From contig JAQGDQ010000017.1 in assembly GCA_030141605.1 (NCBI GenBank), positions 438,001-502,000 on the forward strand: DNA of 64,000 nucleotides. Direction: 5' to 3'. Below are positions 7,624 through 55,100 of the stretch, in pieces (within the stretch, counting starts at the first letter, position 1; each line of letters begins with the position of its first letter). The notes beneath the pieces were generated by a model that was not told the DNA's origin, made no database searches, and saw nothing but the letters and a program-made list of their open reading frames with translations. Made by a program: the position numbers and the translations under genes. Origin of the DNA: Tubiluchus corallicola. Its lineage: Eukaryota; Priapulida; Priapulimorpha; Priapulimorphida; Tubiluchidae.

Positions 7624-8505
7624 AGTTTTTTGTAATTATGCACTTTTGATAAGTGAATGTTTACAATGTCATAGCATTGCTCCAACACTGCTCTGCTCCA
7701 TCAATGTCACCATTTCATCACTCATTTCAATCTAGCTGAAAACAGAGCCTTTATTATGAAACGTACACTCGCAGAGAAATTGTCCCATGCAGAAACCAAA
7801 CTCGGATTAGCACCAAACTCGGATTTTCGCAAAAAGATCAGGCGCTCTGTATACTTGTTGGCCCGGGAACACATCCGCTTTCACTGCAGTTTGCAAATCT
7901 TATTCCACTATATTTGTTGCTTGTAACTCGTTGTTGATATGCACCTCTCTTTGCCAACAAGAGAGAAATAGTACTTGAATGTCAAAAGGAGGCTTCTGTT
8001 TTCTTGCGTGCTCTTTTATGCATTTTCATTGCTCTGCCTGACCTTGATGAGAAGTTAAACAAGGACACTTGAAAGGTTTCTTGTTAATGGTCTGATTGTT
8101 TTCGAGGAAAGTCACGAAACTTGATTTGTAAATTTTCAAATGTCCTAAAGTCATTTGCTAAATCAAAAGACTGACAAGTTTAAATTATCAAGTGTACATT
8201 TAGGTCTTCACATTTATTGAGCTCAGATCGTAACATTATAGCATGTCCTTTGTCATGTGTGTTTATAACAACAATAATTTCTTGCATTACAAGCATGTTT
8301 CATGATCTGAGAACAATAATGAGCTTCAAAAACTGTTGCTATGACAACAATGCATGGCAAACTTTAAAAGCTCCACTTTTCTAAATAGTCGACATCATTA
8401 GCAGATTAGAGATTAGCAGATTAGTGGCTGTTTAGAGATTTACAATAATTTAACTGAAAAATAGAAATGTAACTGAGAAATAAAGAGTAACACATAGGAC
8501 GCAGG

Positions 8506-8742
8506 GTGTATACCATAGTGATGGAAATTTCTGTTTTGAACTCTGAGGCTCCAGTTAGAAAGTACATCTGCAGTTTAGAGTATAAATCACTTGCCCGCTG
8601 TTTGCTAATTTTAACTATTTGGGCAACATTTTCAAATACAAAAGTTGTTTTGTATTTGGACTTCCTATACAGAACAACTGAGATGTCTGTTGAATTTAAT
8701 GCCTCTTTCCTTGGTACTTATTACCTGCTGATTATCTTGTAG
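8506..8742 (+). other. Small open frame, identical in both duplicates (doubtful)
   Basis: A 78-codon open frame that by eye is identical at the DNA level to 14013-14249, although the surrounding duplicated DNA carries substitutions and indels. The product has two hydrophobic stretches but resembles no family I know. Identity over 237 bp could be chance or local conversion. I do not claim it is a gene. Confidence 0.15.
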
Positions 8743-10530
8743 GTGAAGTGAATATTTTTCATCATTATTCTATTTAGCTTCATTAGTTAGAGTTTGTTGC
8801 TTATTAGAATTAGTATGCTCAAGTAGCATTTTTTGAATTTGGTTTCTAAGCGTCTAATTCAACCTCATTTATGAAGTTCTCGATTTAACTTTGCAACTAG
8901 TTTTTGGTGGTTCAAACAAAAAGAAATTGGATATAAATGTGTGTTTTCTGAAGAAAGTTTGGAAGTTCTTTTGCAACTTCACCCGTAAGATGGCCCTGAA
9001 AGATGAGTCGCTTTAGTTATCCCAGAGTTTATCGCTTGTGTGACGGTTTTTCAGTAAAATGGTTGTAAACACAGCATTTTCCACTCAGACAGCAACCAAT
9101 TTAGCAGCGCCATCAGTTTCTCATCCTTCTGGAGTTAAAAATATTTTCCAGATGCCTGAGACAGCCCCTTACCGAGACAAATGGCATGTTTGCAAATTTG
9201 ACAGAGAAGTGCCATGATATCTAAGTAAGCTGTTACGCTGCACTGCAATAATGTGAATCACTAAAGTCTCCAAAACAAAATCTGAACGAAATCATTTTCT
9301 TGAGGGACAATTAAATGCTCTTCATAATTAAAGCTTAAAAAATTCATCTTAAACTTTTATATCACTTACAATGCTGTCTTACTGCGTACTAACACCGAGC
9401 TTGTGTTAGTAGTAAAGCTGTATGAAACTTGTAATCGTAGGAAACGTGTTTTGATAACATTGCATAAAGTTTGAAAAAATAATCAGAGCAATCGTAGCAC
9501 ACTCTTTGCTAACTAAACAAAATTTAAATAACTTTATATCGTCAGTAAGTTCAATAATGTATTTTTTGGTGAATCAGTGGCTCACACTGGGATGGCGATG
9601 CCATGCTGTTTTAAATTATTAAGAATTTTTTCTTTTCAATTACATAAATCTTTCAAAGAGGTGGGCTCAGTGTTAAGTAATATAACTTTGCATGGAAAGT
9701 TCTTTGGGATATACCATAGAATTCCCATTTCTTACCATTCAAAAATTCATTTTCAAGCTTGATTTCACCAGGAATAAATCTGTATAGTGTACCTAAACTT
9801 TGTATTAATATCCTTGTCACTCACAGCTCTTTTAATAATTACAAAAACTTTAAAAATGTTTAATCTGATTTTTAAATCATTGTTATTTTTGTCCAGATCT
9901 CAGAAACTTTCATGCCACTCTGCCCTCTATTTTTACGAAAGTTTTCACTTAATTTTTGTTATAAAGTATAATTTATAATATATTGGCTTAATATTTTCTT
10001 CAAAACGCCTTGGAAGTGAGAGATGCCCTTTATGTGTCTTTAGATAAATTTAATCACTGAGCGTGTTTTGGTAAATTCAATTTGCATGTTTCACATTACA
10101 AGTTCTGATTTCTCATCTTGGTAAATGAAATTTTTAATAATGTTGTATGATACTGAAACATAGTAAGACATCAAAGTTGTCTTACACAAAAATTAATTTT
10201 AACAGCCTTTCAGTTTTGCACAGACGTGAAATTATGTGACGTGCAATAAGAAAATAGTGCCTTGAGGTGCTATGTGCGTGGATATTTTACCAGTAGTTAC
10301 ATTATTCAGTGCACCAGACAGCAAGTTCATCGCAGTACGTTGTTGTTGATTACAACGTCACATCCCTTTTTGAAAAAAAGGCAGATTTCATTTTGCTAAT
10401 GAAGCGTCAAGAATGTTTGAACACTTATGAGAGAGGAGAAAAATGAAGTAAATAACTCGCTAGGAAGATTTTTGCAGAAGTGCTGTGTTGATTTTGAAAT
10501 CAGGTTTTTTTCAATTTCATTTATATTTCC

Positions 10531-10740
10531 ATGTTCTGGAACACTTTTGTTATTGTGACACTAAATTGTAGTGAAATCGAATTCGAAAATGAATCTGTTG
10601 ACATCTCTGCCATGAATCCAGACGAATTTACCAATAGGCATTTGAAACTGTACCTAACACGATTGTATTCTGTACATTTTTTTCTTGGAAGCACCATTGT
10701 TATCAGCAGTTACGTAAACCACAGTATAAAACAACAAAGA
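10531..10740 (+). pseudogene. GPCR N-terminal fragment upstream of GPCR-C
   Basis: The frame beginning at 10531 encodes a second copy of a receptor N-terminus through TM1: ENESVDISAMN, then HLKLYLTRLYSVHFFLGS, then an STIVIS block. This parallels MNESIDDSAI, HLRLYLTGLYSV and ILGSATVIS in GPCR-C itself. Homology stops in TM1, and the frame then runs into the 5' leader of GPCR-C, ending at a TGA (10756-10758) inside the GPCR-C start region, in another frame. Compared with the twin at 16044 it lacks about 30 bp in phase. It is best read as a partial 5' duplication. If transcribed it would act as an overlapping upstream ORF. Confidence 0.75.
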
Positions 10741-10741
10741 A

Positions 10742-11809
10742 ATGGAATTTATGAATGAATCTATTGATGACTCTGCCATAAAAGAAAACAAATACTTAGA
10801 ACAAGAAGTTATTTATAATAACAGCCACCTAAGATTGTATCTCACTGGGTTGTATTCAGTGGATTTTATTCTCGGAAGTGCAACTGTCATCAGTAATGTT
10901 TTAACAATCATAGCTGTGCTGACATCACGAAAAATTGGAAGTTCATTGTTAACAGTAGTCATTGTTGCACTTGGTGACACATGTCTAGGAATAGCTGGAA
11001 TATTTAAATTTTTGGTAGCAGGAATCGACCCGCATTATAACATCTTGCCCGATCGAGGACCGTGGTGCTGGACCAGCACAGTAATGATCGTTATTGGTTT
11101 CCTTGTATCTGCACATGGGATGCTGCTTCTTTCCATTGACCGATACATCAAAATAATACATCCACATTCAAATGGATTAAAGATAACACATGTAATTGCT
11201 GCAGGAAGTGCAATAACTGGATTTTCTGTTGTTTACGCATTGATACCAATTTTAACTGATTGGAATTTGGCTAGCAAAAGTGGTAATCCAAAACGATATC
11301 ACAAGGTGATGTTTTATTTAACTGGTCCACTTCTTCAAAGCTTTTTTTATGTAGCAATACCTTTATTTCTCACAGCCATATTAACATCAATTGTACTTTA
11401 TATCAAGATATACATAGCAGTGAAGAAAAGTCAACAAATAAAAGCAAAGATGTCTAAAAACAGTTTACTGGGTTCTAACAGTAAAGCACTACAAACAATA
11501 ATACTCGTTGTAAGCACATATGTGCTGTTATGGCTGCCACAGTTCTTGTACTTGTTGTCCCTTTCAATACCCAATGGCAAGAAGCTTACTATTCAATTTT
11601 ACTACATTTACCCTGTAGTGAATCTTTTCTTTTTATCTAACTCCTTAATAAATCCATTGATTTACATGACAAGAATACCTTTAATTAGAAATCAGTTAAT
11701 AAAAATCTTCCGTAAGTGTCAAGTTCGCATTGGTGCACAAAATATTGAAGCAGGAGTTAAGAGAAATCATCATAAAGTCAACGTCTTTGTTACACTTAGA
11801 GATGAATGA
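10742..11809 (+). CDS. GPCR-C, class A receptor lacking the ECL2 cysteine
   Basis: Intronless 355-residue receptor. Landmarks are Asp79 (2.50), Cys109 in GPWCW before TM3, DRY at 133-135, WLP at 264-266 and NPLIY at 304-308. Two N-glycosylation sequons lie before TM1 (NES at 5-7, NNS at 26-28). The ECL2 cysteine, present as FCLAG in GPCR-D and GPCR-F, is Tyr192 here (TAT in place of TGT), so the usual TM3-ECL2 disulfide cannot form. The twin gene is GPCR-D; GPCR-F shares nearly the same N-terminus. Met1 and Met4 are both plausible starts. The 5' leader (AAACCACAGTATAAAACAAC) is shared with D and F. Confidence 0.88.
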   Translation: MEFMNESIDDSAIKENKYLEQEVIYNNSHLRLYLTGLYSVDFILGSATVISNVLTIIAVLTSRKIGSSLLTVVIVALGDTCLGIAGIFKFLVAGIDPHYNILPDRGPWCWTSTVMIVIGFLVSAHGMLLLSIDRYIKIIHPHSNGLKITHVIAAGSAITGFSVVYALIPILTDWNLASKSGNPKRYHKVMFYLTGPLLQSFFYVAIPLFLTAILTSIVLYIKIYIAVKKSQQIKAKMSKNSLLGSNSKALQTIILVVSTYVLLWLPQFLYLLSLSIPNGKKLTIQFYYIYPVVNLFFLSNSLINPLIYMTRIPLIRNQLIKIFRKCQVRIGAQNIEAGVKRNHHKVNVFVTLRDE

Positions 11810-12570
11810 ATGGCACAGAGCAATACGCACCATTTTGGAAACTTTTGTTTAAATGCTATGCTATATTTGTTTAAAACTCATTATGTAGGCATCTACATTT
11901 CATAATTTAAGTTGTTGTTACATCTCAGTTTGGAAATCGACTGCTGTTTTCTGGAAATTTCAGCATAGAAGCTATGTTGCACTATTTAAATATCTCAGTT
12001 AAGCGAACAAATGTCACCACCTGTTACCTCTTAATTTAGAATATGTAAACTTGTAGCTGCAGAGTAAAAGTTTATGGCAGTAAAACAGAAACTGTATTCA
12101 CTAACAGTTGCAAATGCCATTTGGTAACAATTTTCACATTATATTTATCATGTTATTGCAAGTCAGTGAATATTCTGTGAATCTGTTGTATATGTAAACA
12201 AATAGATTTTCAAATATAAAAAGCATTTAGCCTCTTATTTATTTTCTAAAAAAAATCACCTAAAGTGTACCAATATTATTATTTAATTAGTATTAAATTA
12301 ATTAATTCTTTTTTAATTGGTGGATAATGTTTAAAATGGGAAAAAGATTTGAAATAAGTTTCTATGAGTAAGTAGTCAATCGAACGAACGAAAAATGGTA
12401 ATGTAATCTTTTCTATCAAAATTTGTGACTGTTTATCTACAGAATTTTTCAATTGATTTAGTATTATTCTTTGTAATATATTGTATAATTTTAACTATAT
12501 ATGTTCTATAGCTTCTTTAAAAACTTGGAAAACTTAAAATAAAGAAATGTCTCTCTTTGAAAATGATATT
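11810..12570. other. 3' flank of GPCR-C, no gene
   Basis: AT-rich sequence repeated almost unchanged after GPCR-D (17326-18083). It probably includes the 3' untranslated region; I could not choose a single poly-A signal. No further coding sequence recognised. Confidence 0.4.
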
Positions 12571-12589
12571 CTCTCTCTCTCTGTCTCTG

Positions 12590-12620
<31 letters not shown>

Positions 12621-12680
12621 TCTATCTGTCTCTCTTCTCTCTCTCACACTGTCCTCTCTCTCTCTCACTTTCTCTCTCTT
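12571..12680. repeat. (CT)n microsatellite at duplication end
   Basis: Imperfect CT tract with GT, CA and TCTATC interruptions. The same interruption pattern appears at 18084-18240, so the tract is part of the duplicated unit and marks its right end. Homology stops at or just after ATGTCC near 12680. Confidence 0.9.
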
Positions 12681-13378: not shown

Positions 13379-14012
13379 GCTTTCACTGCAGTTCGCAAAT
13401 CTTATTCCACTATATTTGTTGCTTGTAACTCGTCGTTGATATGCACCTCTCTTTGCCAACAAGAGAGAAATAGTACTTGAATGTCAAACATAAAAGGAGG
13501 CTTCTGTTTTCTTGCGTGCTCTTTTATCCATTTTCATTGCTCTGCCTGACCTTGATGAGAAGTCAAACCAGGACACTTGAAAGGTTTTTTGTTAATGGTC
13601 TGATTGTTTTCGAGGAAAGTCACGAAACTTGATTTGTAAATTTTCAAGTGTCCCAAAGTCATTTGCTAAATCAAAAGACTGACAAGTTTAATTGTCAAGT
13701 GTACATTTAGGTCTTCACATTTATAGAGCTCAGATCGTAACATTATAGTATGTCCTTTGTCATGTGTGTTTATAACAACAATAATTTCTTGCATTACAAG
13801 CATTTTTCATGATCTGAGAACAATAATGAGCTTCAAAAACTGTTGCTATGACAACAATGCATGGCAAACTTTAAAAGCTCTACTTTTCTAAATAGTCGAC
13901 ATCATTAGCAGATTAGAGATTAGCAGATTAGTGGCTGTTTAGAGATTTACAATAATTTAACTGAAAAATAGAAATGTAACTGAGAAATAAAGAATAACAC
14001 ATAGGACGCAGG

Positions 14013-14249
14013 GTGTATACCATAGTGATGGAAATTTCTGTTTTGAACTCTGAGGCTCCAGTTAGAAAGTACATCTGCAGTTTAGAGTATAAATCACTTG
14101 CCCGCTGTTTGCTAATTTTAACTATTTGGGCAACATTTTCAAATACAAAAGTTGTTTTGTATTTGGACTTCCTATACAGAACAACTGAGATGTCTGTTGA
14201 ATTTAATGCCTCTTTCCTTGGTACTTATTACCTGCTGATTATCTTGTAG
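14013..14249 (+). other. Second copy of the small open frame (doubtful)
   Basis: The same 78 codons as at 8506-8742, without any difference that I can see. No recognised function; see the entry for the first copy. Confidence 0.15.
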
Positions 14250-16043
14250 GTGAAGTGAATATTTTTCATCATTATTCTATTTAGCTTCATTAGTTAGAGT
14301 TTGTTGCTTATTAGAATTAGTATGCTCAAGTAGCATTTTTTGAATTTGGTTTCTAAGCGTCAAATTCAACCTCATTTATGAAGTTCTCGATTTAACTTTG
14401 CAACTAGTTTTTGGTGTTTCAAACAAAAAGAAATTGGATAATAAATGTGTTTTTTCTGAAGAAAGTTTGGAAGTTCTTTTGCAACTTTACCCGTAAGATG
14501 GCCCTGAAAGTTTAGTTACCCCAGAGTTTATCGCTTGTGTCACGGTTTTTCAGTAAAATGGTTGGAAACACAGCATTTTCCACCCAGACAGCAACCAAGT
14601 TAGCAGCGCCATCAGTTTCTCATCCTTCTGGAGTTAAAAATCTTTTCCAGATGCCTGAGACAGCCCCTCGCCGAGACGAATGGCATGTTTGCAAATTTGA
14701 CAGAGAAGTGCCATGATATCTAAGTAAGCTGTTACGCTGCGCTGCGATAATGTGAATCTCTAAAGTCTCCAAAACAATTAAAATCTGAACGAAATCATTT
14801 TCTTAAAGGACAATTAAATGCTCTTCGTAATTAAAGCTTAAAAAATTCATTTTAAACGTTTATATCACTTACATGCTGTCTTACTGCATACTAACACCGA
14901 GCTTGTGTTAGTAGTAAAGCTGTATGAAACTTGTAATCGTAGGAAACGTGTTTTGATAACATTGCATAAAGTTTGAAAAAATAATCAGAGCATTCGTAGC
15001 ACACTCTTTGCTAACTAAACAAAATTTAAATAACTTTATATCGTCAGTAAGTTCAGTAATGTATTTTTTGGTGAATCAGTGGCTCACACTGGGATGGCGA
15101 TGCCATGCTGTTTTAAATTATTAAGAATTTTTTCTTTTCAATTACATAAGTCTTTCAAAAAGGTAGGCTCAGTGATGGTAATATAACTTCGCATGGAAAG
15201 TTCTTTGGGATATACCATAGAATTCCCATTTCTTACCATTCAATAATTCATTTTCAAGCTTGATTTCACCAGGAATAAATCTGTATAGTGTAGCTAAACT
15301 TTATATTAATGTCCTTGTCACTCATAGCTCTTTTAATAATTACAAAAACTTTAAAAATGTTTAATCTGCTTTTAAATTAAATCTCTGAAAACTTCTCTGA
15401 AAGTTTCATGCCACTCTGCCCTCTATTTTTACGAAAGTTTTCACTTAATTTTTGTTACAAACTATAATTTATAATATATTGGCTTAATATTTTCTTCAAA
15501 ATGCCTTGTAAGTGAGAGATGCCCTTTATGTGTCTTTAGATAAATTTAATCAGTGAGCGTGACTTTGGTAAATTCAATCTGCACGTTTCACATTACAAGT
15601 TCTGGTTTCTCATCTTGGTAAATGAAATTTTTAATAATGTTGTATGATACTGAAACATAGTAAGACATAAAAGTCGTCTTACACAAAAATTAATTTTGGC
15701 AGCCTTTCAGTTTTGCACAGACGTGAAATTGTGTGACGTGCAATACGAGAACGGTACCTTGAGGTGCTATGTGCGTGGATATTTTACCAGTAGTTACATC
15801 ATTCAGTGCATCAGACAGCAAGTTCATTGCAGTACCCTGTAGTTGATCACAATGCCACATCCCTTTTTGAAAAAAGGCATATTTCATTTTGCTAATGAGG
15901 TGTCAAGAACGTTTGAACACTTATGAGAGAGGAGAAAAATGAAGTAAATAACTCGCTAGCAAGATTTTTACGGAAGTGCAGTGTTGATTTTGAAATCAGG
16001 TTTTTTTCAATTTGATTAATATTTCTGGGACACTTTTGTTATC

Positions 16044-16260
16044 GTGGCACTAAATTGTAGTGAAATGGAATTCGCAAATGAATCTGTTGACATCTCTGCC
16101 ATGAATCCAGACGAATTTGTAGAAAAAGAAATTATCTACAGATTCTATACCAATAGGCATTTGAAACTGTACCTGACAGGTCTGTATTCTGTACATTTTT
16201 TTCTTGGAAGCACCATTGTTATCAGCAGTTATGCAAACCACAGTATAAAACAACAAAGAA
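16044..16260 (+). pseudogene. GPCR N-terminal fragment upstream of GPCR-D
   Basis: Counterpart of the fragment at 10531. It keeps the longer form, including a VEKEIIYRFY stretch that matches the LEQEVIY of complete receptors. TM1 homology again ends at STIVIS, and the frame terminates at a TGA (16275-16277) just inside the GPCR-D start, in a different frame. Presence in both duplicates shows that the partial 5' copy arose before the 4.8-kb duplication. Confidence 0.75.
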
Positions 16261-17325
16261 ATGGAATTTATGAATGAATCTATTGATGACTCTGCCATAG
16301 AACAAAACAAATACTTAGAACAAGAAGTTATTTATAATAACAGCCACCTAAGATTGTATCTAACTGGACTGTATTCAGTGCATTTTATTCTCGGAAGTGC
16401 AATTGTCATCAGTAATGTTCTAACAATCATAGCTGTGCTGACATCACGAAAGATTGGAAGTTCATTGTTGATAGTAGTCATTGTTGCACTTGGTGACACA
16501 TGTCTAGGAATAGCTGGAATATTTAAATTTTTGGTAGCAGGAATCGACCCGCATTATAACATCTTGCCGGATCGAGGACCGTGGTGCTGGACCAGCACAG
16601 TAATGACCATTATTGGTTTCATTGTATCTGCATATGGGATGCTGCTTCTTTCTATTGACCGATACATCAAAATAATACATCCACATTCAAATGGATTAAA
16701 GATAACACATGTAATTGCTGCAGGAAGTGCAATAATTGGATTTTCTGTTGTTTCCGCATTGATACCAATTTTAACTGATTGGAATTCGGCTAGCAAAAGT
16801 GGTAATCCAGAACGATATCACAAGGTGTTTTTTTGTTTAGCTGGTCCAGTTCTTAAAAGCTTTTCTTATATAACAACACCTTTATTTCTCACGGCCATGT
16901 TAACATCGATTGTACTTTATATTAAGATATACGTAGCAGTGAAGAAAAGTCAACAAATAAAAGCAAAGATGTCTAAAAACAGTTTACTGGGTTCTAACAG
17001 TAAAGCACTACAAACAATAGTACTCGTTGTAAGCACATATGTGCTGTTATGGCCACAGTTCTTTTACTTGTTGTCCCATTCAATACCCAAAGGCAAGAAG
17101 CTTATTATTCAATTTTACTACATTTACCCTGTAGTGAATCTTTTCTTTTCATCTAACTCCTTAATAAATCCATTGATTTACATGACAAGAATACCTTTAA
17201 TTAGAAATCAGTTAATAAAAATCTTCCGTAAGTGTCAAGTTCGTATTGGTGCACAAAATATTGAAGCAGGAGTTAAGAGAAATCATCATAAAGTCAACGT
17301 CTTTGTTACACTTAGAGATGAATGA
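16261..17325 (+). CDS. GPCR-D, class A receptor with shortened TM6 motif
   Basis: Intronless 354-residue twin of GPCR-C. Landmarks are Asp79, Cys109 in GPWCW, DRY 133-135, an intact ECL2 Cys192, and NPLIY at 303-307. A 3-base in-frame loss changes TGGCTGCCACAG, as seen in GPCR-C, to TGGCCACAG, so the TM6 motif reads LLWPQ instead of LLWLPQ. Removing one residue between Trp and Pro should rotate the extracellular half of TM6, so signalling may be altered or lost (inference). The frame is otherwise open. The start and leader match GPCR-C and GPCR-F. Confidence 0.87.
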   Translation: MEFMNESIDDSAIEQNKYLEQEVIYNNSHLRLYLTGLYSVHFILGSAIVISNVLTIIAVLTSRKIGSSLLIVVIVALGDTCLGIAGIFKFLVAGIDPHYNILPDRGPWCWTSTVMTIIGFIVSAYGMLLLSIDRYIKIIHPHSNGLKITHVIAAGSAIIGFSVVSALIPILTDWNSASKSGNPERYHKVFFCLAGPVLKSFSYITTPLFLTAMLTSIVLYIKIYVAVKKSQQIKAKMSKNSLLGSNSKALQTIVLVVSTYVLLWPQFFYLLSHSIPKGKKLIIQFYYIYPVVNLFFSSNSLINPLIYMTRIPLIRNQLIKIFRKCQVRIGAQNIEAGVKRNHHKVNVFVTLRDE

Positions 17326-18083
17326 ACGGCACAGAGCAATATGCACCATTTTGGAAACTTTTGTTTAAATGCTATGCTATATTTGTTTAAAACTCATTAT
17401 GTAGGCATCTAAATTTCATAATTTAAGTTGTTGTTACATCTCAGTTTGGAAATTGACTGCTGTTTTCTGGAAATTTCAGCATTGAAGCTATGTTGCACTA
17501 TTTAAATATCTCAGTTAAGCGAACAAATGTCACCACTTGTTACCTCTTAATTTAGAATATGTAAAGTTGTAGCTGCAGAGTAAAAGTTTATGGCAGTAAA
17601 ACAGAAACTGTATTCACTAACAGTTGCAAATGCCATTTGGTAACAATTTTCACATTATATTTATCATGTTATTGCAAGTCAGTGAATATTCTGTGAATCT
17701 GTTGTATATGTAAACAAATAGATTTTCAAATATAAAAAGCATTTAGCCTCTTATTTATTTTCTAAAAAAAATCACCTAAAGTGCACCAATATTATTATTT
17801 AATTAGTATTAAATTAATTAATTCTTATTTAATTGGTGGATAATGTTTAAAATGGGAAAAAGATTTGAAATAAGTTTCTATGAGTAAGTAGTCAATCGAA
17901 CGAACGAAAAATGGTAATGTAATCTTTTCTATCAAAATTTGTGACTGTTTATCTACAGAATTTTTCAATTGATTTAGTATTATTCTTTGTAATATATTGT
18001 ATAATTTTAACTATATATGTTCTATAGCTTCTTTAAAAACTTGGAAAACTTAAAATAAAGAAATGTCTCTCTTTGAAAATGAT

Positions 18084-18085
18084 AT

Positions 18086-18116
<31 letters not shown>

Positions 18117-18123
18117 GTCTTTC

Positions 18124-18173
<50 letters not shown>

Positions 18174-18222
18174 CTATCTATCTCTCTTCTCTCTCTCACA
18201 CTCTCCTCTCTCTCTTTCACTT

Positions 18223-18254
<32 letters not shown>

Positions 18255-21228: not shown

Positions 21229-21669
21229 TTATAATACATACATATAAATATTTACATCCGAAAGCGACTGTACGGAACAGCAATATGAGTGGTAAATATA
21301 TCCATTTACTTGAAGAACAAAGTCATAGTTAAAAATCATATTATGCTTATTTACAATTGTTAGAAAGTCAGAAGCTTTATCAGTATCATTTAGAAGTGGA
21401 CACAAGTTCGTGTTAAAATCAAAACTACATTTGTTATGAACACAGTTAGTTCTAGTGCAATCAAAAATAAAACATATTTCATCTTCCAAAACATGACAGA
21501 GATTACATAAATGCTGGTCCCTGGGGATGCCCCTCTTCTTTCCTAATTCAACCTTCAAATTGTGTGAACCTACTCTTACAAGGTCTTTAGTAACTTTCGT
21601 AAAGTTTGAATCACCCATTAAGTACATTTCAGTATCCCGAATATTTGTTACTAGTTGCAGCGAATGCAT
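21229..21669 (-). mobile_element. LINE C-terminal zinc-knuckle relic
   Basis: A minus-strand frame with RVGSHNLKVELGKKRGIPRD, then LCNLCHVLEDEICFIFDC. This is the conserved R-x-GSH-x-L-x-x-E-x-G-(K/R), C-x-x-C, EDE-x-x-F-x-F-x-C pattern at the C-terminus of many animal LINE polyproteins. It begins inside the 3' end of GPCR-E and runs on downstream of it. The frame is open for 146 codons but has no RT domain. Confidence 0.75.
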
Positions 21670-22711
21670 TGTCTCTGCTGTGACGCATGTCGATAGGTTT
21701 CAACTGTATTACTCTAACTGTTGACTGACGCTTATAAAAGATTTTTCTTAATTGATTTTTTATTAATGGTATTCTAGCCATGTAAATTAATGGATTAACT
21801 AACGAGTTCGAAGCCATAAAAAAGTTAAATACTGGCACCAGATAGTAGAATTTGATGGTGAGTTTCTTCCCTTTTGGTATTGTAACAGACACAGCGTAAA
21901 GCAACTGCGGCAGCCATAGCACGACATATGTGCCAATGACAAGTGCAATTGTTTGCAGTGCTTTACTGTTAGAACCCAGTGATCCATTTCTAAACATCCT
22001 TGCTTTAATGTGCTGGCTTTTCTTCACTGCGGTGTATATCCGGACATAGAGTGCAACTGGTACAAATATTGTTATGAACAATACTAGCGTGATTGTGTAT
22101 GAAAAATATTGGGACATAGGGCCAATTAAACAGAATTTCATCTTGTGGTACCTTTTTGGATCCCCACTTTTGCTAGCTAAATTCCAGTCAGTTAAAGCTG
22201 GCGTCAATGAGTAACTAAAAGAAACTATGATGGTAATAACTCCTGCAATGATTACGTGTGTTATTTTTAATCCACTTGAATGCGGATGTAAAATTTTAAT
22301 ATATCGGTCAATTGAAAGAAATAACATTCCAAATGCGGATATTAGGAAACCAGCTGTATCAATTACTGTACTGATCCAACACCAAGGTCCACGATGTGGC
22401 AGGATGCCATAATGTGGATCAATTCCTACGACAATAAATCTGAAAAATCTGCTTGCACCCATGCAAGCATCACCTAATGCAACAATGCTTACTATCAACA
22501 CAGACGTTTCTATTTTTGGTGCTCTAAACACGGCAGTAATTGTTAATGAATTGCTGGCAACAATAAGACATCCGAGCGCTAGATGTACCGAGTACAATGC
22601 AGTCAAATATGACCTTAAGCTGTAATCATTGTAGAGCATTGCATCTTCTGTGCCATTGTAGTTTTCTTTAACGGTGATATCAGTTGACATATTTGCATGT
22701 TTGGATTCCAT
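21629..22711 (-). CDS. GPCR-E, class A receptor with LINE-overlapping tail
   Basis: Intronless 360-residue receptor. Landmarks are Asp81 (2.50), Cys111 in GPWCW, DRY 135-137, ECL2 Cys194, WLP 266-268, NPLIY 306-310 and the ICL3 block SLGSNSKALQT. Sequons before TM1 include NMS at 7-9 and NGT at 19-21. Its first 150 or so residues are almost identical to GPCR-G, while the rest differs widely. The last residues (about SNKYSGY) and the stop lie in DNA that, in another frame, is LINE-derived, and the tail lacks the VNVF-type ending of C, D and F. The original C-terminus has probably been replaced. Confidence 0.88.
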   Translation of the reverse strand: MESKHANMSTDITVKENYNGTEDAMLYNDYSLRSYLTALYSVHLALGCLIVASNSLTITAVFRAPKIETSVLIVSIVALGDACMGASRFFRFIVVGIDPHYGILPHRGPWCWISTVIDTAGFLISAFGMLFLSIDRYIKILHPHSSGLKITHVIIAGVITIIVSFSYSLTPALTDWNLASKSGDPKRYHKMKFCLIGPMSQYFSYTITLVLFITIFVPVALYVRIYTAVKKSQHIKARMFRNGSLGSNSKALQTIALVIGTYVVLWLPQLLYAVSVTIPKGKKLTIKFYYLVPVFNFFMASNSLVNPLIYMARIPLIKNQLRKIFYKRQSTVRVIQLKPIDMRHSRDNAFAATSNKYSGY

Positions 22712-25660
22712 TTATGTCTTCTTTCTGCTGTTGCTTTGCAGATTCACAGCACAATTTTATTAAATTATGAATCCATTACAGACCTCGACATGGACGACAT
22801 TATTTACTTGGAAATGATGTTATTTGTTGTCAGGCAAAACAGTCCGAAATGTTTACGTTTAAACGCTTTAGTTTTGTTTCGATAAGTTGTACCACGATGA
22901 GTTTGATTATTCCTTTTCTGAGAAAATCTACATCTCTTGTGAAGATCCAACATAAAACTTCAGTAATGGTTAAGCAACTGGAATACATTACTTGGTAACA
23001 GTACGGTTAATGCTTACACTTTGGCTGTTCATTCGCATTTCAACTTCGACGTGTGAATTTATTCCATTTCTGGTTTTATACTGAAACTTGGTGCTGTAAA
23101 TCATTTACACTTACAGTTTCAGTGGTATTAAACATCCTTTTGATAACGTGTTGGTGAAATTTTAGCGTCGTGGTTTATTTTATGAACAAAAATGTCATTG
23201 TAGTTCAGCCAAATGGACTATGTTACACATTTACCTTGAACGTTAGTGCTTAATGGCGTCTACATTAGAATGCAGCTGCATTACTAGTAATTGTTTGCTC
23301 GTCTTATTATGTTCTGAATGAAATTAATTCATATAGCATTAAGTTAATTTGACTTCACATTTTGACTGCACCATTAGTGGAAAAAGTATAGTGACGGCAT
23401 TTAGAAACAATACTGTTTGTGATCCATTATTCATCTTTGTGGCTGTCAATCTTTGCAAGATTATCTGACAAATGACACTGCTTATATTGGTGATGCTATG
23501 CATGTTTTTATGAAATCTCATTGTCTCGTAATAATCGATTTAAAGAAGTCTTTGTTGCTTTAGATTAGGTTAGGTTTACTCGGATTGAGCTATAAAACAA
23601 AGATTATCCTACAATAGCCCAGTAGTGAAAATTGATCCTTGTTGTGACCATTTCTTGTTCACAGCACACAAAAAACAAGCCTACACTTTATAGAAAGAGA
23701 ACAAATATGGAAAATATTGAAAGAATTGCATTTCTTCATTGCTGAGATGTACATAACACTGATAATTAAATCAGGCTGACATATCTTGTTTTTTAAAATA
23801 AGGCTACATTTGTACAAAAAATTCAAACATTTTTGATACATTTTTAATGACACTTTATTTAGAGTACAATAACTTGTAAATTACTGATAACAATTATACA
23901 TCTTAGAACGAATTGCACTGAATACAGTCCAGTTAAATGCCATTTCAGGCACTTATTCTCTTTTTGCATCTCGAGAATTGCAATCTTTTTGCTCAGTACA
24001 GATAATTTCTATGGCCCTTCGGCAAAAAACCTTGCTTTATGTCCCTGTTTTCATATCTTTGCTTTGCTTGTCGAATGCCTTGTGGCGCTGCAATTAACGA
24101 AGGCAAGGTGCTTTCTGAATAGCATTTCTTATTCTCTCTGTTTCATTTGTCTGAGTGTTGATGAAAGTCAGAACATTTCATTTATAGAGAGGCATTGTGC
24201 TATTGTGTCATTGAAATAAATGATATCAAAAGGTTGACTTGTTTCTCCTCCTGATTATGAAACGTATCAGATTTTCATGCTTATTTAAAAATATCAATAA
24301 TATTACCTTCAAAAAAATTTGGGGATAGAAATGTTATCGCGTAATTAAACTTTGCGTATCAAAGTTTCAGGTTACATAAAATTCTTATACATGTATTACT
24401 GTACTAAACTATAACTTGCTAAGTGAAGCTGCGGATATACGTATTGATAAATTTCAAGCCAAAATAGCAGGGTTTCCTTAGCCGTGTTTTTGTGCAGTAA
24501 TGCTCAGACATAATGTGATATTTTATTCGAAAAAAAGGAAAGTTTTTAATGATATTTATGTGATTCTCAAGTATCTTACAATATTGGAAATGTAAATGCT
24601 ATTTGTTTAAGGTTTAATTTGTATTCAATGTACAGCCATTTCCAACCATACCTACCGAGACAGGAAAAATGGATAGATCCAGCTGTTTGCTCGCACAAAT
24701 AGTAAGCAGTACAGAATCGTAACCACATATACACTCCCCAATTCAGTCATAACCTCTAGATAGTCTTGTAAAGTGACATATTACCCAGAATTGAACTCTA
24801 AATTTTAAATTGTGACTGGACTGAAAATTTGCTACGATTTTTTTTGTTTCACTGTTATTCGTCACACATCAGTGCCTCGTTGCAGTCTTCACTTCAGAGT
24901 CAGCTTTTGTGATATGTATAGAAGATGTTTGCCATTTGATTATTGTTCCTAACAATGATGTCATCTCTAGCCGTTCTCTTGGGTCTTTAATCCATGTTGA
25001 CAGTAAGTCTTTAAGCCATTATTTAAATATAAGAAACGTCTTAACAGTAATTAATAGTAACATCTTAACAGTAATTAATGTATATTTGATATCTCAGGTC
25101 AAAGCAAGCTATAATCAAACATGAACAGCAAGAATATTATTTTCACATAGAATCATTATATTAACCATGGGTATTCAAAATTCTGAAAATGAACATTCAT
25201 AAAATGTTGATAGAAAACAATTTGCCTGATGATTTACAGGATTATTCTATTCTTTCTGTTGATTACTTACTACCCGCTTACTAACAAAAACTCATGTCAA
25301 AATTTTGGTCAGTTTTTGGGCATTGTTTTTTCGGAAAAGGTAGAAAGGGGCAGAATGCGAACGAAAGCGTATAGTCACACAAGGTAACAAGCACCTGAAC
25401 TGTCATTAGTCGTCCAGCTTCTAGTCACAGTCATCGTATCTCTTTATCAACTTTCATTTACTAGTTCAAGGTCCACATACTTTTAACATTTCCTTCAGAA
25501 TTCTGGTTGTTAGGAATTTGTAATCCATAAATAAATATAATTACCTATGTTAAAGGCTTATATAACTTCAAGAGACATTAAAGTTTTTTTAACGCATTAT
25601 TTACACAAAGAATTCATAGTTATTATTAAACAAAAGAGACTTATAAATTAAATAACTTAC
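22712..25660. other. Intergenic, nothing recognised
   Basis: AT-rich region upstream of GPCR-E. Short frames look random. A 22-bp direct repeat ending CTTAACAGTAATTAAT occurs twice near 25037-25079. Confidence 0.4.
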
Positions 25661-26262: not shown

Positions 26263-27327
26263 TTAGCTTTTATACGTAACAAAGACATTGACTGTATGAC
26301 GGTGTCTGTCAGTTGTTGGTGCGAAGTGTCTTGCAGCAATACCAACTTGATGCTTAGAGAATATTTTTATTAATTGATTTCTAATTAAGGGTATTCTTGT
26401 CATATAAATCAATGGATTTATTAAGGAGTTAGATGAAAAGAAAACATTCACTACAGGGTAAATGTAGTAAAACTGAATAGTGAGCTTGTTGCCTTTAGAC
26501 GTTGAAAGCGATATCAAGTAAAAAAATTGAGGCAACCATAGCAGCACATACGTACTTACAACAAGTATTATTGTTTGTAGTGCTTTACTGTTAGAACCCA
26601 GTAAACTGTTTTTAGACATCTTTGCTTTTATTTGTTGGCTTTTCTCCACTGCTCTGTATATCTTGATATAAAGTGCAATTGATGTTAACATAGCTAGGAG
26701 AATTAATGGTGTTTTTACATATGAACTGTTGTGAGAAATAGGACCAGCTAAGCAGAACATGACCTTGTGATATCGTTCTGGATTACCACTTTTGCTAGCC
26801 AAATTCCAATCAGTTAAAATTGGTATCAATGCGTAAACAACAGAAAATCCAATTATGACACTTCCTGCAGCAATTACATGTGTTATCTTTAGTCCTTTTG
26901 AATGTGGATGTATTATTTTGATGTATCGGTCAATGGAAAGAAGCAGCATCCCATATACAGAAGCAAGGAAACCAATAATGGTCATCACTGTGCTGGTCCA
27001 GCACCACGGTCCTCGATCCGGCAAGATGTTATAATGCGGGTCGATTCCTGCTACCAAAAATCTAAACATTCCACCTATGCCTGTACATGTGTCACCAAGT
27101 GCAACAATGACTACTATCAACAATGAACTTTCAATTTTTCGTGATGTCAGCACAGCTATGATTGTTAAAACATTACTGATGACAATTGCACTTCCGAGAA
27201 TAAAATGCACTGAATACAGTCCAGTTAGATACAATCTTAGGTGGCTGTTATTATAAATAACTTCTTCTTCTAAGTATTTGTTTTGTTTTATGGCAGAGTC
27301 ATCGATAGATTCATTCATAAATTCCAT
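26263..27327 (-). CDS. GPCR-F, class A rhodopsin-like receptor, intronless
   Basis: A 354-residue receptor very close to GPCR-C and D but on the opposite strand. Landmarks are Asp79, Cys109 in GPWCW, DRY 133-135, ECL2 Cys192, WLP 264-266 and NPLIY 304-308, all intact. It is thus the least damaged member of this subtype. The C-tail differs after TM7 (AARHFAPTTDRHRH in place of the GAQNIEAG block) but keeps the VNVFVT ending. Upstream of the ATG it shares the leader AAACCACAGTATAAAACAAC with C and D, though there is no N-terminal receptor fragment in front. Met1 and Met4 are alternative starts. Confidence 0.9.
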   Translation of the reverse strand: MEFMNESIDDSAIKQNKYLEEEVIYNNSHLRLYLTGLYSVHFILGSAIVISNVLTIIAVLTSRKIESSLLIVVIVALGDTCTGIGGMFRFLVAGIDPHYNILPDRGPWCWTSTVMTIIGFLASVYGMLLLSIDRYIKIIHPHSKGLKITHVIAAGSVIIGFSVVYALIPILTDWNLASKSGNPERYHKVMFCLAGPISHNSSYVKTPLILLAMLTSIALYIKIYRAVEKSQQIKAKMSKNSLLGSNSKALQTIILVVSTYVLLWLPQFFYLISLSTSKGNKLTIQFYYIYPVVNVFFSSNSLINPLIYMTRIPLIRNQLIKIFSKHQVGIAARHFAPTTDRHRHTVNVFVTYKS

Positions 27328-28009: not shown

Positions 28010-28162
28010 TTACTAATGCTGAGTCCAGCACACCAGAAAGTGCACTTGCACTTTGTCAATGCTGGTTAGGTATGATCTTGAAGCTGAGTTGTTAGGAATT
28101 ACAACTTTTGAATTGTTCTCTTTTGTGTTATAGTCATCAAGAAGTGTGTTTGCATATTCCAT
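28010..28162 (-). pseudogene. GPCR-H-like N-terminal pseudogene fragment
   Basis: Starting at the ATG whose complement is at 28160-28162, the minus strand reads MEYANTLLDDYNTKENNS, then a PNNSASRSYLTS stretch. This aligns with MEYANASVDDFHKENSSS and FNNLALRSYLMG of GPCR-H. TM1 begins but falls out of frame (VHFLVCW, with ISNA recovered in the next frame) and a TAG ends it. The rest of the receptor is not recognisable downstream. It is a dead or truncated copy that lies outside any longer open frame. Confidence 0.75.
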
Positions 28163-29557: not shown

Positions 29558-30631
29558 TCATTTACTCCTAAGTGTAAAAGAGAGATTGGCTATACGAGGG
29601 TTTCTCTCAATGGCCAGCTCAATGTTTTGTGCAGCAACTCGCGCTTGACGCTTACAGAACATTTTTGTTAATTGATTTCTAACTAACGGTATTCTTGTCA
29701 TGTAAATCAATGGATTTATTAAAGAATTTGAAGCAAAGAAGAGATTTACGACAGGGAGAATGTAGTAAAATTGGATGGTGACCTTCTTGCCTTTGGGTAT
29801 TGTAAGTGATAACATGTGAAAGAACTGTGGCAGCCATAACAGCACATATGTACTGACAACGAGTGCTATTGTTTGTAGTGCTCTACTATTAGAACCCAGT
29901 GAGCTGTTTTTAAACATCTTTGCTTTTACTTGCTGGCTTTTGCTCACTGCAATGTATATCCGGATGTAAAGTACAATCGATAGGAACATGGGTGTGAGAA
30001 ATAATGTCGTAGTTATATACGAAAAGCTTTGGGAAAGCGGACCTGCCAAACAGAACGTGAACTTGTGATATTGTTTTTTATCTTCACTTTGGCTAGCCAA
30101 GTTCCAGTTAGTTGCAGCTGGTATTAATGCATAAAGAACAGAAAATCCAATGATAGCAATTGCCGCAATAAATACGTGTGTTATTTTTAATCCACTTGAA
30201 TGCGGTTGTAAAATTTTAATGTATCGGTCAATTGAAAGAAATGACATTCCAAATGCAGATATTAGGAAACCAGCTGCGTCAGTTACTGTGCTTATCCAAC
30301 ACCAAGGTCCACGATGTGGCAGGATGCCATAATGTGGATCAATTTCTACGACAATAAATCTGAAAAATCTGCTTGCACCCATGCAAGCATCACCTAATGC
30401 AACAATGGTTACTATCAACACAGACGTTTCTATTTTTGGTGCTTTAAACACCGCAGTAATTGTTAATGAATTGCTGGCAACAATAAGACATCCGAGTGCT
30501 AAATGTACCGAGTACAATGCAGTCAGATATGACCTTAAGCTGTAATCGTTGTAGAGCATTGCATCTTCTGTGCCATTGTAGATTTCTTCAACGGTGATAT
30601 CAATTGACATATTTGCATGTTTGGATTCCAT
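29558..30631 (-). CDS. GPCR-G, mosaic class A receptor
   Basis: Intronless 357-residue receptor with Asp81, Cys111 in GPWCW, DRY 135-137, ECL2 Cys194, WLP 266-268 and NPLIY in TM7. Residues 1 to about 153 are almost identical to GPCR-E. From TM4 on it switches to the C/D/F subtype (IIGFSVLYALIP, FCLAGPLSQ, WLPQFF, and a tail with AAQNIELAIERN). DNA identity to GPCR-E begins upstream of the ATG near 30666 and stops near 30172, the limits expected of a conversion tract of about 500 bp. The displaced C/D/F-type front end is still present upstream. The frame is intact, so the chimera may work. Confidence 0.9.
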   Translation of the reverse strand: MESKHANMSIDITVEEIYNGTEDAMLYNDYSLRSYLTALYSVHLALGCLIVASNSLTITAVFKAPKIETSVLIVTIVALGDACMGASRFFRFIVVEIDPHYGILPHRGPWCWISTVTDAAGFLISAFGMSFLSIDRYIKILQPHSSGLKITHVFIAAIAIIGFSVLYALIPAATNWNLASQSEDKKQYHKFTFCLAGPLSQSFSYITTTLFLTPMFLSIVLYIRIYIAVSKSQQVKAKMFKNSSLGSNSRALQTIALVVSTYVLLWLPQFFHMLSLTIPKGKKVTIQFYYILPVVNLFFASNSLINPLIYMTRIPLVRNQLTKMFCKRQARVAAQNIELAIERNPRIANLSFTLRSK

Positions 30632-30664
30632 CCTCTATTACAGATGCACAGCACAATTTTAATT

Positions 30665-30838
30665 AATCTGTCGCCTAGTGCAAGAAGATCTACTATCAAT
30701 GGCGAACTTACAATTTCTCGTTACGTCGGCGCAGTTATGATTCTTAGCACATTACCAATAAGAATTGTACTTCCAAGAACAAAATATGCTAAATGCAGTG
30801 TATTCCAAGTAGTGTCTTTAGGTGCTTATTGCTGTCCA
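30665..30838 (-). pseudogene. Displaced GPCR 5' fragment next to GPCR-G
   Basis: On the minus strand this reads, with one frameshift and one TAA stop, NKHLK, FSIF, then VLGSTILIGNVLRIITAPT, stop, then REIVSSPLIV and LALGD. This follows the N-terminus to TM2 of GPCR-F (HFILGSAIVISNVLTIIAVL, SRKIESSLLIV, VALGD). Homology ends at the TM2 Asp, exactly where GPCR-E-like leader sequence starts. It is the orphaned front half of the gene whose back half survives in GPCR-G. Confidence 0.78.
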
Positions 30839-31836
30839 CAACGTCTATGCATTTGTCTTGTTTTGTGGAAAAGATATTAACAGATTTCATTTCTCTATCG
30901 TTAAATGCCTATCGTTATTGATAATGTAACATTACACAATGTCGAGAAAGAAGTCTAACAAACAAACTAGTGTATGGCATTAACATCAATGTGTACTGTT
31001 TGATGCACTATGAATATACACTATATATGCTGACAAAACATCAGAGCACATAACACTCATTACACTCAATTACTATTCTTGACTGCCAGACATATTTTAT
31101 TGCTTGAAACTTGCATTCACACTGCAATTAAACAGTGCATGTGTTATTTGCACAGTTTTTCTGCAGTTCATCGGCTTACATATTACACGAAGGATGGCTT
31201 GATTTTGCTTTGGTTGTCAAAGTGCCTTGGGTCTTGTAATTAGTGGCTGTGCCTGAACAAAATTGGAGAGTGTTGATTAAAGTCACAAATAAAGAAAATT
31301 TTCCTCAAGAAAGGGCATTTCATATATATATATAGTTATTTGATGAAATCACAACTTGCTCTTCACAAAAAGCTGTCAAGAAAATGATTAGTTTTCATCC
31401 TTGCTTACAGATATTAACAATATTATTTTCTTACAAAGCAGAGCTAACCACGCAACAACTGTTGAAAGTTAGTTTAAATGACTTTTGCATCATATGGCAC
31501 ATGCACAGTCATTTCAGAGAGTTAAGTACATACAGGATATTTGAGTAGTTTATGTGTATTGAGCCTCATTGGGTGATATAAACTATAACAGGAATTCCGA
31601 GCTAACCAGATCAAAATTAAGCAAATTAGATTATTTGTGTGAACATAAAGTTAAAATGTATGTAATTATATGTATACGTAGAGAATTCAAACGCATTGTT
31701 TGTTTGTGTAAATTAAAGCGGAAAAGATATAGATCTAGACTTTCCTACACGCTGGACTACTTTATTGCATCTTATGAGCTATGTACAAGCATTGCCTAGT
31801 TTTTATACGATTTTCCTGATATACAAAAGATATTGT
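30839..31836. other. Intergenic, nothing recognised
   Basis: AT-rich. A short (TA)n run at about 31326-31337. Short open frames look random. Confidence 0.4.
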
Positions 31837-52100: not shown

Positions 52101-55100
52101 TTCTGCATTTCTTATAAAATGTACTCTCGATCTCGGTTTCAGTCAAAGCGATTTGAGCAACACAAATCTATTGAAAACCGGCGCTTACTGTGGCATGGTA
52201 CAAATGTAGCTGTGGTAGCGGCCATTTTGAAGAGTGGTCTTCGCATCATGCCCCATAGTGGAGGAAGAGTTGGAAGAGGCATTTACTTCGCCTCGGAGCA
52301 TGCAAAGTCTGCTGCATATGGTACGTGAATTTATAACTTCGACTGGGAAATGACAGTGCAGTTTTACAGCAAAGGAGGTTCATTTCAGTTCATACTCATT
52401 TTGTTTTGCTCAAACACTGCAGTTACTGGATTTTTTTTCATTTTTTGAAATCTATTGTTAATTTGTCTAAGAGAACATTTCATGTGTACTTGTGCATGAA
52501 AGCCATTGTGTGAGGAGTAGAAACCTATATAAAGTATCTAATATAACGTAACCGTTACTTAGTGAGAGCAGTTTTTCAGGAACCCATGCAAAATGCAGCA
52601 AACTCTTATGGTCCTGAAGAATTTAAGGAAAATATTCAAGAATTGTTAAATAAATTTAAAAGAATGTTTAGCAAATACATTTTTCATGTTAGAGTAATTT
52701 GATTATTATTTATCAAAAAGTTTAGACAAGTGTTTCATTATGTATGAGGGGTGATTGACTTTGCACATGTTGCCAAAAAATAATTATGTTTTGCACCAAG
52801 TTTCTTGTCTATACTCCCTAATGGAGTACAATCAAACCTCTTTACACCACTTACTTTGGGACTGCAGAAAAGTTGGTGTTAAGCAGGTTTGGCGTTGTAA
52901 CGAGGTGCATTAAATATATCTGTCTGTGCAAATATAGACATTTTATTTTGCGAAAAATATAGGCATTAAGCGAAGTTAGCAGTATAAAGGGGGCGTTATA
53001 ATGAAGGTTAATAGCAGATGATGTCTTTGTGCGGTAAACTTATGCTATAAATGATATTAAAGCGAGTTTTCCAGGCTGTGTGTCATGTTTTTCTTTCATG
53101 TTAGTTTTGTGGGAATTTTGCATTCAATATAATGGTATAACTAGGATTCTGTAATACTGATTTTCCATATCTAATAATTCCACACCCAAAGACACCATGT
53201 CACATGCTTAATGTCTGTTCTGTGTTATGCGATCAAGGAAGGTATCTTTGGAGACATATAAATTATCTAAATCATATTGTTAAGTCTGTACAATCAACCC
53301 TTAGTTCAACCAACGAACCAGCCATTTTGTACGCTGATTTACCAGGACTTGCTATCATTCAACAGGGCACTGTTGATCCCGAATGGGTACAAACAGCACA
53401 AATTCCTGATATTACGATTTTCTTCCCAGAATTTCGTTTCTTAGTAATAGCTATGCTTACCGATCCATTCGATATTCTAGAAAATATTCACAAAGCCAGA
53501 GATCATAAAACAAGCAGATATGCAGCTTTAATATCAGATCTTGAAAAACAAAATTTTCAGGTGTTGTTTGTTCCATTTGAGATCGGCAGTCGCGGTTTTA
53601 TTTCTGCCGACAATTACAATATGCTTAAAATACTTTTCAAGCGGTACCATTAACAAGGATAATTATCTGAAAAGTGAAGAGTCTTAATGAAACTTGCCAT
53701 CATCTCATTTTCTATTCAAAATTCTTGTGAGGTTGCCAAGCTCCATCTTTAATGTCTCTGCCAAACACATAAGATATATTATTTATAAATTTTAATATCT
53801 AAGTTTTAATAGATTTAATTATTTTTACCACAAATTTATTTATAACTCATCTTTTTGATTTCGCAGAATGCTTGTGTTTGTCATATAAGTGTTTATGTAA
53901 AATTTGTAATGTACAAGTCAATATGTATTTAATGTGTGTTAATCCCTGGAGGAGTATCATCATGTACACTCCTATCTGGGACTTTGCGTGTTTTAAATTT
54001 TGTTGTTTACAGCAATAAAATTTTTAAAATAAAAATCTACAAGTGTTCGCATTTCTGCAGTGCGGCCAGCTACTCGGGATGGAGTTCGTACTGGTATCAT
54101 GTTTCTCAATGAGGTGGCACTAGGAGCAGAGCATACAACACTGACTGGAGGTTCTTTTACCTCTGCTCCTAAAGGATATGACTCGATCGTCGCACGGGGT
54201 TCCCAAGAACCAAGTAAGTTTTATTAAGTGGAGAGCTTGAAGTTTGTTTGTATTATAAGTACTGTGCTGATGACCATGTATTGACTTCTTAAGTTGAATG
54301 TTTTCTGACTTGTATTTTAACAAAAATGTAAAACTTTGGCTTTGTTATGTTTAGCAAATAAATGAAACCTTTCGCTTCATGGTTTTATATCTGACAACAT
54401 CGGCTTAACTTTAATAGGAATTTCACAGACAATAGTTCTTACTAGGGGTGAACATCGAACATTCGAATTCGATTCAAATGAGTTTTTTGCTCAAATTCGA
54501 GTCGAAACTAAAGTTATAGATTCAAATAATTCAACCATGTAGGTTCTTTATCATTAAAACTTTTGAAACATCATGGAATTAGCACAATTTAACCGCGATT
54601 TCTGTACCAAATTTTCTACAAATTATTAATGGTTTTACTGCAGAACAAAACTCTGTAAAGTGCCTGATCTTCGTTAAACTGCTTTTAACCGGTGGTTCAA
54701 AAATCTTTCAAACTCAATTTGAATTCGAAATTCAGTTTAATTCAAATTCTAAAGTAACAAATTCGATGCGATTCGAATTCGTTTTCTGGTAGAGAATGCT
54801 CACCCATAGTTCTTGCCCTTAAATATTCCTCTTATTATATAAAATCTTTTTTAGTCGTATTATGTTACTATGGTCAATTAGTTGGCAGTTATCATTGCAT
54901 TGAAGAATAATAATTATGGTTGACTGACAGAGACACAGATGTTTTTTATTTCTTTGGCTGTGAGGGCAAAGGTCGAGAGGAATAGCTGAGTATTTATGAT
55001 ATGTGCTTGACTATGAAATCGTGTATAGGCACTATGGAACTGCAGTACCCCCTCTTTTCGCTCGATATTATTGACAACATTCAATGTAATGAGTCTTTTT

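Follow-up and report, generated by a model that had tools for sequence, protein, structure and literature searches.

GPCR-G of Tubiluchus corallicola is a mosaic of two receptor paralogues and lies beside the remnant of a C/D/F-type front

In a receptor gene cluster of the priapulid Tubiluchus corallicola, the gene GPCR-G raises the question of how one open reading frame came to combine the front of one paralogue with the back of another, and how a broken N-terminus came to lie directly upstream of it. The window analyzed here is the whole stretch of 64,000 nucleotides (assembly GCA_030141605.1, contig JAQGDQ010000017.1, positions 438,001 to 502,000, forward strand), taken from a draft assembly of 343.5 Mb in 2344 contigs. 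It contains nine long single-exon ORFs, A to I, which can be aligned as one GPCR family, and an assembly-wide search listed 55 matches to this family, many of them distant. Besides these ORFs the window comprises a LIM-domain ORF (59464-60729) with the C-terminal end CVIS, which we take to be prickle-like, and an inverted repeat pair (54475-54693 and 58017-58235; 219 nt, 95% complementary). Rfam at the gathering threshold gave zero matches. The coordinates of the relevant features are listed in Table 1.

Table 1. Position, strand and evidence of GPCR-G, its parts, related genes and the N-terminal stubs in the window.
Feature	Position	Strand	Evidence
GPCR-G, mosaic class A receptor ORF, 357 aa	29558..30631	-	ORF; PF00001 E 7.1e-23
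E-type tract: leader and codons 1-153 (N-terminus to TM3/ICL2)	30173..30666	-	20/459 CDS differences to E, dS 0.10; leader homology from 30666/22765
C/D/F-type back of G (TM4-TM7 and tail)	29558..30172	-	identities in codons 154-333; informative sites
Degenerate C/D/F-type N-terminal stub upstream of G, ending at codon 79	about 30667..30893	-	nhmmer 30886-30670, E 7.9e-18
GPCR-E, likely donor lineage	21629..22711	-	only other E-type front found in the assembly
GPCR-F: leader from about -33 to -37 and front common to C/D	26263..27327	-	sequence comparison
N-terminal stub preceding C; reaches codon ~52; ATG -> ATC	10576..10711	+	nhmmer E 3.6e-11
N-terminal stub preceding D; reaches codon ~52; frame open	16065..16230	+	nhmmer E 7.6e-19
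C/D/F-like N-terminal stub 1.15 kb upstream of E	23864..23980	-	nhmmer E 3.6e-10; identities of 66.7% (D), 59% (E) and 50% (I)
H-like N-terminal stub 0.7 kb upstream of F	28043..28162	-	nhmmer E 2.2e-5; scores higher locally against H than against I, F or E

Two paralogue types in one open reading frame

The comparison of G with its neighbors confirmed that G is a real mosaic, in which two paralogue types meet at a sharp breakpoint within one open frame. Residues 1-153 of G agree with E at 143 of 153 positions (10 differences), and the nucleotide differences between the two genes amount to 20/459 up to CDS nt 459 and to 202/612 beyond it. The best split of the E-G comparison falls at nt 459 (chi2 131; Fisher 1e-34), a value reached by none of 300 codon shuffles (maximum 29.4). 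By itself this shuffle test is not specific, because rates vary along these genes, above all in the tail. Nine other gene pairs used as controls gave best-split chi2 values of 8 to 62, and eight of them (chi2 20 to 62) also exceeded all 300 shuffles, the exception being C-D (8.0, reached in 26/300). The best splits of the control pairs fall elsewhere, except for E-I (20.3, nt 474).

Direct evidence for the mosaic is the pattern at the 276 sites where C, D and F agree with each other and differ from E. In the front, which holds 131 of these sites, G agrees with E at 120, with C/D/F at 7 and with neither at 4; at the 145 sites of the back it agrees with C/D/F at 95, with E at 28 and with neither at 22. 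The synonymous distances follow the same division. E-G dS is 0.103 in codons 1-153 and 0.97 in codons 154-330, while C-G dS is 1.06 in the front and 0.46 in the back, where G has a dS of 0.51 to D and 0.55 to F. Front identity is 95.6% for G-E and 66.7% for G-C; in the back (codons 154-333) it is 80.6% for G-C, 78.3% for G-F and 71.7% for G-E. The earlier note had described an E-like front on a C/D/F-like rest, with TM1-TM3 swapped and the frame kept open, and this description is borne out by the residue and site counts and by a 357-aa ORF that is E-type from the N-terminus to TM3/ICL2. A uniform divergence of G from E, named there as one observation that would refute a mosaic, is contradicted by the split at nt 459, the site pattern and the jump in dS.

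Phylogenetic trees resolved the two parts to a different degree. The front tree joined E and G with a support of 99, and a placement of G with C/D/F was rejected by the AU test (p 0.002 among three trees; with more relatives p 0.002 for DNA and 0.003 for protein). The back of G grouped with C/D/F at modest support in the DNA tree (62; 83.9/85 in another tree) and weakly in the protein tree (31.6/68; 55/10), and a grouping of E with G survived the AU test (p 0.37; with more relatives 0.20 for DNA and 0.49 for protein). Since the back topology leaves this grouping unrejected, the assignment of the back to the C/D/F type rests on distances and site counts. In a search of the assembly for E-type fronts, in which very common words were skipped and the best candidates were scored, the eight matches consisted of G itself, E (96%) and six sequences at 70-77%; no second E-type donor besides E was present among these candidates.

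The edges of the tract and the adjoining stub

The E-type tract of about 495 bp is composed of 36 nt of leader and 459 nt of coding sequence. Its right edge lies at nt ~457-460 (window 30175-30172) in a conserved segment after DRY: the last unbroken match to E is nt 456, and differences are dense from nt 460. This segment would be easy for homologous pairing. On the left, homology to E extends as far as about 30666 (22765 in E, 54 nt ahead of the E start codon) and adjoins the stub; judged by eye, the end of the stub and the start of E homology lie within ~3 nt of each other, and the join shares ~2 bases, too few to prove a pathway. About 18 nt of the leader of E are missing from the leader of G. 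Both limits of E identity proposed earlier, near 30666 and near 30172, agree with these edges. Ordinary gene conversion calls for homology on both sides of the tract, whereas here homology is present on the right, and on the left leader DNA runs straight into codon 79 of the stub. G does fit a chimeric gene formed by ectopic recombination, as two paralogue types share one open frame with a sharp breakpoint.

The stub upstream of G shows 68% identity to D and F (225 columns) and 52-53% to the fronts of E and G. Its frame is disrupted by a 2-nt insertion and an in-frame stop within codons 37-79, and whether its first ATG is the old start varies with the alignment. It represents about half of a 153-codon front, and as the remaining C/D/F-type codons, 80-153, are absent beside G, the E tract replaced material and was not simply inserted. 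Parts of the earlier note have to be modified at this point. A tract of roughly 500 bp does lie in a C/D/F-type gene, but neither simple insertion nor ordinary conversion describes it, as material was lost and the left edge lacks homology. The broken N-terminus does adjoin the left breakpoint, but it extends further than the 30838-30665 given, and what was taken for the displaced front half is a C/D/F-type remnant without codons 80-153.

The dS of the stub is 0.50 to D (42 codons, codons 37-79), 0.64 to C and 0.52 to F. Because these values are close to those of the back of G, the stub fits an old front of the G lineage, which would since have decayed; compared with D its dN is raised (0.235 against 0.156 for the back of G), and it carries one stop. 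This assignment is weakened by the fact that C, D, E and F have stubs upstream as well. The flank upstream of the G stub is F-like (z 4.3). The G stub and the C/D stub were not resolved as sisters (support 40); in site agreement the G stub sided with the D stub 14 times, with the genes 17 times and with neither 8 times.

Stubs elsewhere in the cluster and the origin of the exchange

An nhmmer search of the gene-masked window yielded seven matches, five of which are the N-terminal stubs upstream of C, D, E, F and G. The other two are weak: one lies directly behind the F stub (E 0.19) and one at 961-1131 (E 0.019) without a receptor-like open frame. C-terminal fragments were sought in the same search, and all five clear fragments are N-terminal; this polarity is not significant because the C/D stub is shared by duplication, which leaves four independent cases. 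No stubs were found at 10 loci of relatives elsewhere in the assembly (E up to 0.1), where the two matches were a full-length but disrupted copy (L012) and a fragment at the beginning of a contig (L018). The broken relative (L012, 3874-4893) lies just left of the window and is flanked by two near-identical A-like genes. Short inner or C-terminal matches occur elsewhere in the assembly, for example in C2252, and we claim no genome-wide N-terminal bias.

The F stub does not match the back of F itself, and its flank resembles the H flank (z 5.4); the DNA upstream of the E stub resembles the F flank (z 9.9). Among the 35 flank pairs compared, five exceeded z 3.5 (3.7, 4.3, 5.3, 5.4 and 9.9), and as the shuffles were first-order and the DNA is AT-rich, the low values are weak. 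The stubs of C and D go back to a single event that was copied in a 5.5-kb duplication. Their anatomy is like that of G: a stub up to codon 52 adjoins an F-type leader ~30-37 nt before the ATG, followed by an F-type front. Synonymous differences between D and F were counted in 7/174 same-residue codons up to codon 190 and in 24/113 in codons 191-325 (Fisher 7.5e-6). The back is patchy, with dS ranging from 0.10 to 0.91 by segment (codons 186-325), which makes more than one exchange likely.

Several further observations concern the same genes. The tandem duplication with C and D (7984-12680 and 13492-18231) has 92-98% identity and may be a true duplication or consist of uncollapsed haplotypes. 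C (10742-11809) has lost a cysteine, probably that of extracellular loop 2, by the exchange C194Y, and D (16261-17325) has one Leu codon fewer in the W-L-P motif of TM6. D and F (26263-27327) are near-identical outside the tail and two blocks, codons 186-220 and codons 256-290; these blocks are perhaps near ligand-facing parts.

It is suggestive only that E may itself be an older mosaic. Its best split at nt 496 was reached by 0/2000 label permutations. With eight genes, the trees that place E beside C/D/F in the front were rejected in all three cases for protein (p 0.031-0.047) and in one of three for DNA (0.037; the others 0.0525 and 0.0997), and those that place it beside I in the back were rejected in all three cases for DNA and protein alike (p 0.015 or less). 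With J, K, M and O added and D, N and G removed the test was weaker (front 0.020 for DNA and 0.111 for protein; back 0.144 and 0.279).

Concerning the origin of G, we think that it probably arose in one event of ectopic recombination or repair between paralogues. A break or gap in a C/D/F-type gene would have removed codons ~80-153, and the right-hand end would have invaded an E-type gene at the conserved segment after TM3, which corresponds to the homologous right edge at nt ~459. The E front would have been copied back through the start codon to ~54 nt upstream of the ATG, and the new strand would have been joined to the left-hand end at codon 79 without real homology. The outcome would be a complete new reading frame with the old N-terminus left immediately ahead of it as a dead stub. 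Both the order of these steps within one event and the repair pathway are what we infer from the present locus. In mammalian cells, copying from a donor has been observed to end by end-joining (PMC5104497).

The rival with the best standing, which we still regard as unlikely, separates the two edges: ordinary conversion or unequal crossing over would have made G chimeric, and a separate deletion would have brought the 5' stub of a further C/D/F-type gene, located upstream, into contact with the leader of G. Stubs do occur upstream of C, D, E and F as well, and the H-like F stub, unlike the back of F, indicates that neighbors can supply them; on the other hand an extra event is needed whose joint falls exactly at the edge of E homology, and the dS of the stub matches the back of G itself, although another gene of the same type could match too. 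An RNA-mediated route, by which a 5' cDNA of an E-type mRNA reaching from the transcription start recombined with G, would account for both left edges lying only ~33-54 nt upstream of the ATG (the E tract starts at E -54, the C/D-F homology at -33 or, by eye, at -37), but no motif common to the edges was visible by eye, and we consider this route improbable. A misjoining of E and G reads is conceivable for similar paralogues in a draft of 2344 contigs, but the tract differs from E at 20/459 sites and by the leader deletion, E itself also stands in the assembly and such an error would call for two internal joins, which makes an artefact more improbable still. Uneven rates along an E-G sister pair are almost certainly not the explanation, for although the back topology tolerates E+G and control pairs do show rate variation, E-G dS jumps about ninefold at the point where G-C identity goes up from 67 to 81%, and the informative sites speak against it.

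The construction of G is a known kind of exchange between paralogues, and its one-sided junction is unusual. In bird olfactory receptor genes, conversion in a tandem family was suggested with one GARD breakpoint inside the 7TM region, in TM6 (PMC6969042). These genes resemble G in an exchange between paralogues with a breakpoint within the 7TM region; the non-homologous left edge and the remaining N-terminal stub set G apart. The Drosophila gene Or22ab is a functional chimera of two neighboring chemoreceptor genes with a reported ligand spectrum; two reports describe it as a fusion, and one of them defines fusions as deletion-born (PMC4910016, PMC9093017). Both are chimeras of neighboring receptor genes, and G differs in that E as the donor is still present and a stub has been left behind. 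Insect ORs are, moreover, not GPCRs. The mammalian system shares with the proposed origin of G the copying of a homologous donor ended by joining at a non-homologous site, but it is a cell reporter with sister-chromatid copying (PMC5104497), whereas G is an evolved gene. No published case matching the anatomy of G was present among the papers listed in a literature search, by which absence is not proven.

A front swap may have happened more than once in this cluster. Tentatively, the cluster could repeatedly swap fronts by one-sided repair from a neighbor, with a datable stub of the former N-terminus left behind on every occasion: in G, in the ancestor of C and D (F-type leader, and F-type front up to about codon 190) and earlier in E. 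Under this reading front and back would act as exchangeable modules that carry different halves of the binding pocket, and the gain of Asp3.32 would be part of the shuffling.

Receptor class and possible consequences of the swap

With 81.8 bits against the Pfam 7tm_1 cut-off of 30.5, G is a class A receptor; among the nine receptor genes the Pfam scan covered G and E. D81, D135 R136 Y137, W266, P268 and N306 P307 are invariant columns and Y310 is kept in G, and we take these residues to be D2.50, DRY, W6.48/P6.50 and NPxxY. The solved sequences closest to G belong to beta-adrenergic (E from 4e-13) and trace amine receptors (about 1e-9). With the low-confidence structure model of G (mean pLDDT 66.9), beta-adrenergic, melanocortin and S1P receptors were among the top Foldseek matches. 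Three residues of G are private in comparison with the other eight window genes. Within the tract the E-G dN/dS is ~0.28 (0.029/0.103), which suggests constraint in E, G or both.

Asp3.32 is present only in E and G among 19 intact family ORFs (nine window genes and 10 relatives elsewhere). In amine receptors this residue of TM3 binds the amino group (PMC4695389). The swap brought Asp3.32 into G. The further aminergic positions, presumably W7.40, Y7.43 and an aromatic residue at 6.51, are occupied by L297, A300 and Q269 in G, and because of this misfit we do not file G as an amine receptor. We hypothesize from the sequence that the swap may have changed the ligand specificity of G, as the earlier note proposed; Asp3.32 is the single concrete hint in this direction.

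Taken together, G represents a natural front/back swap of a receptor, with the likely donor, the recipient and a remnant of an old front within about 9.3 kb. The main amine-anchoring residue is now joined to a back half that has its closest relatives in C, D and F, genes without this residue.
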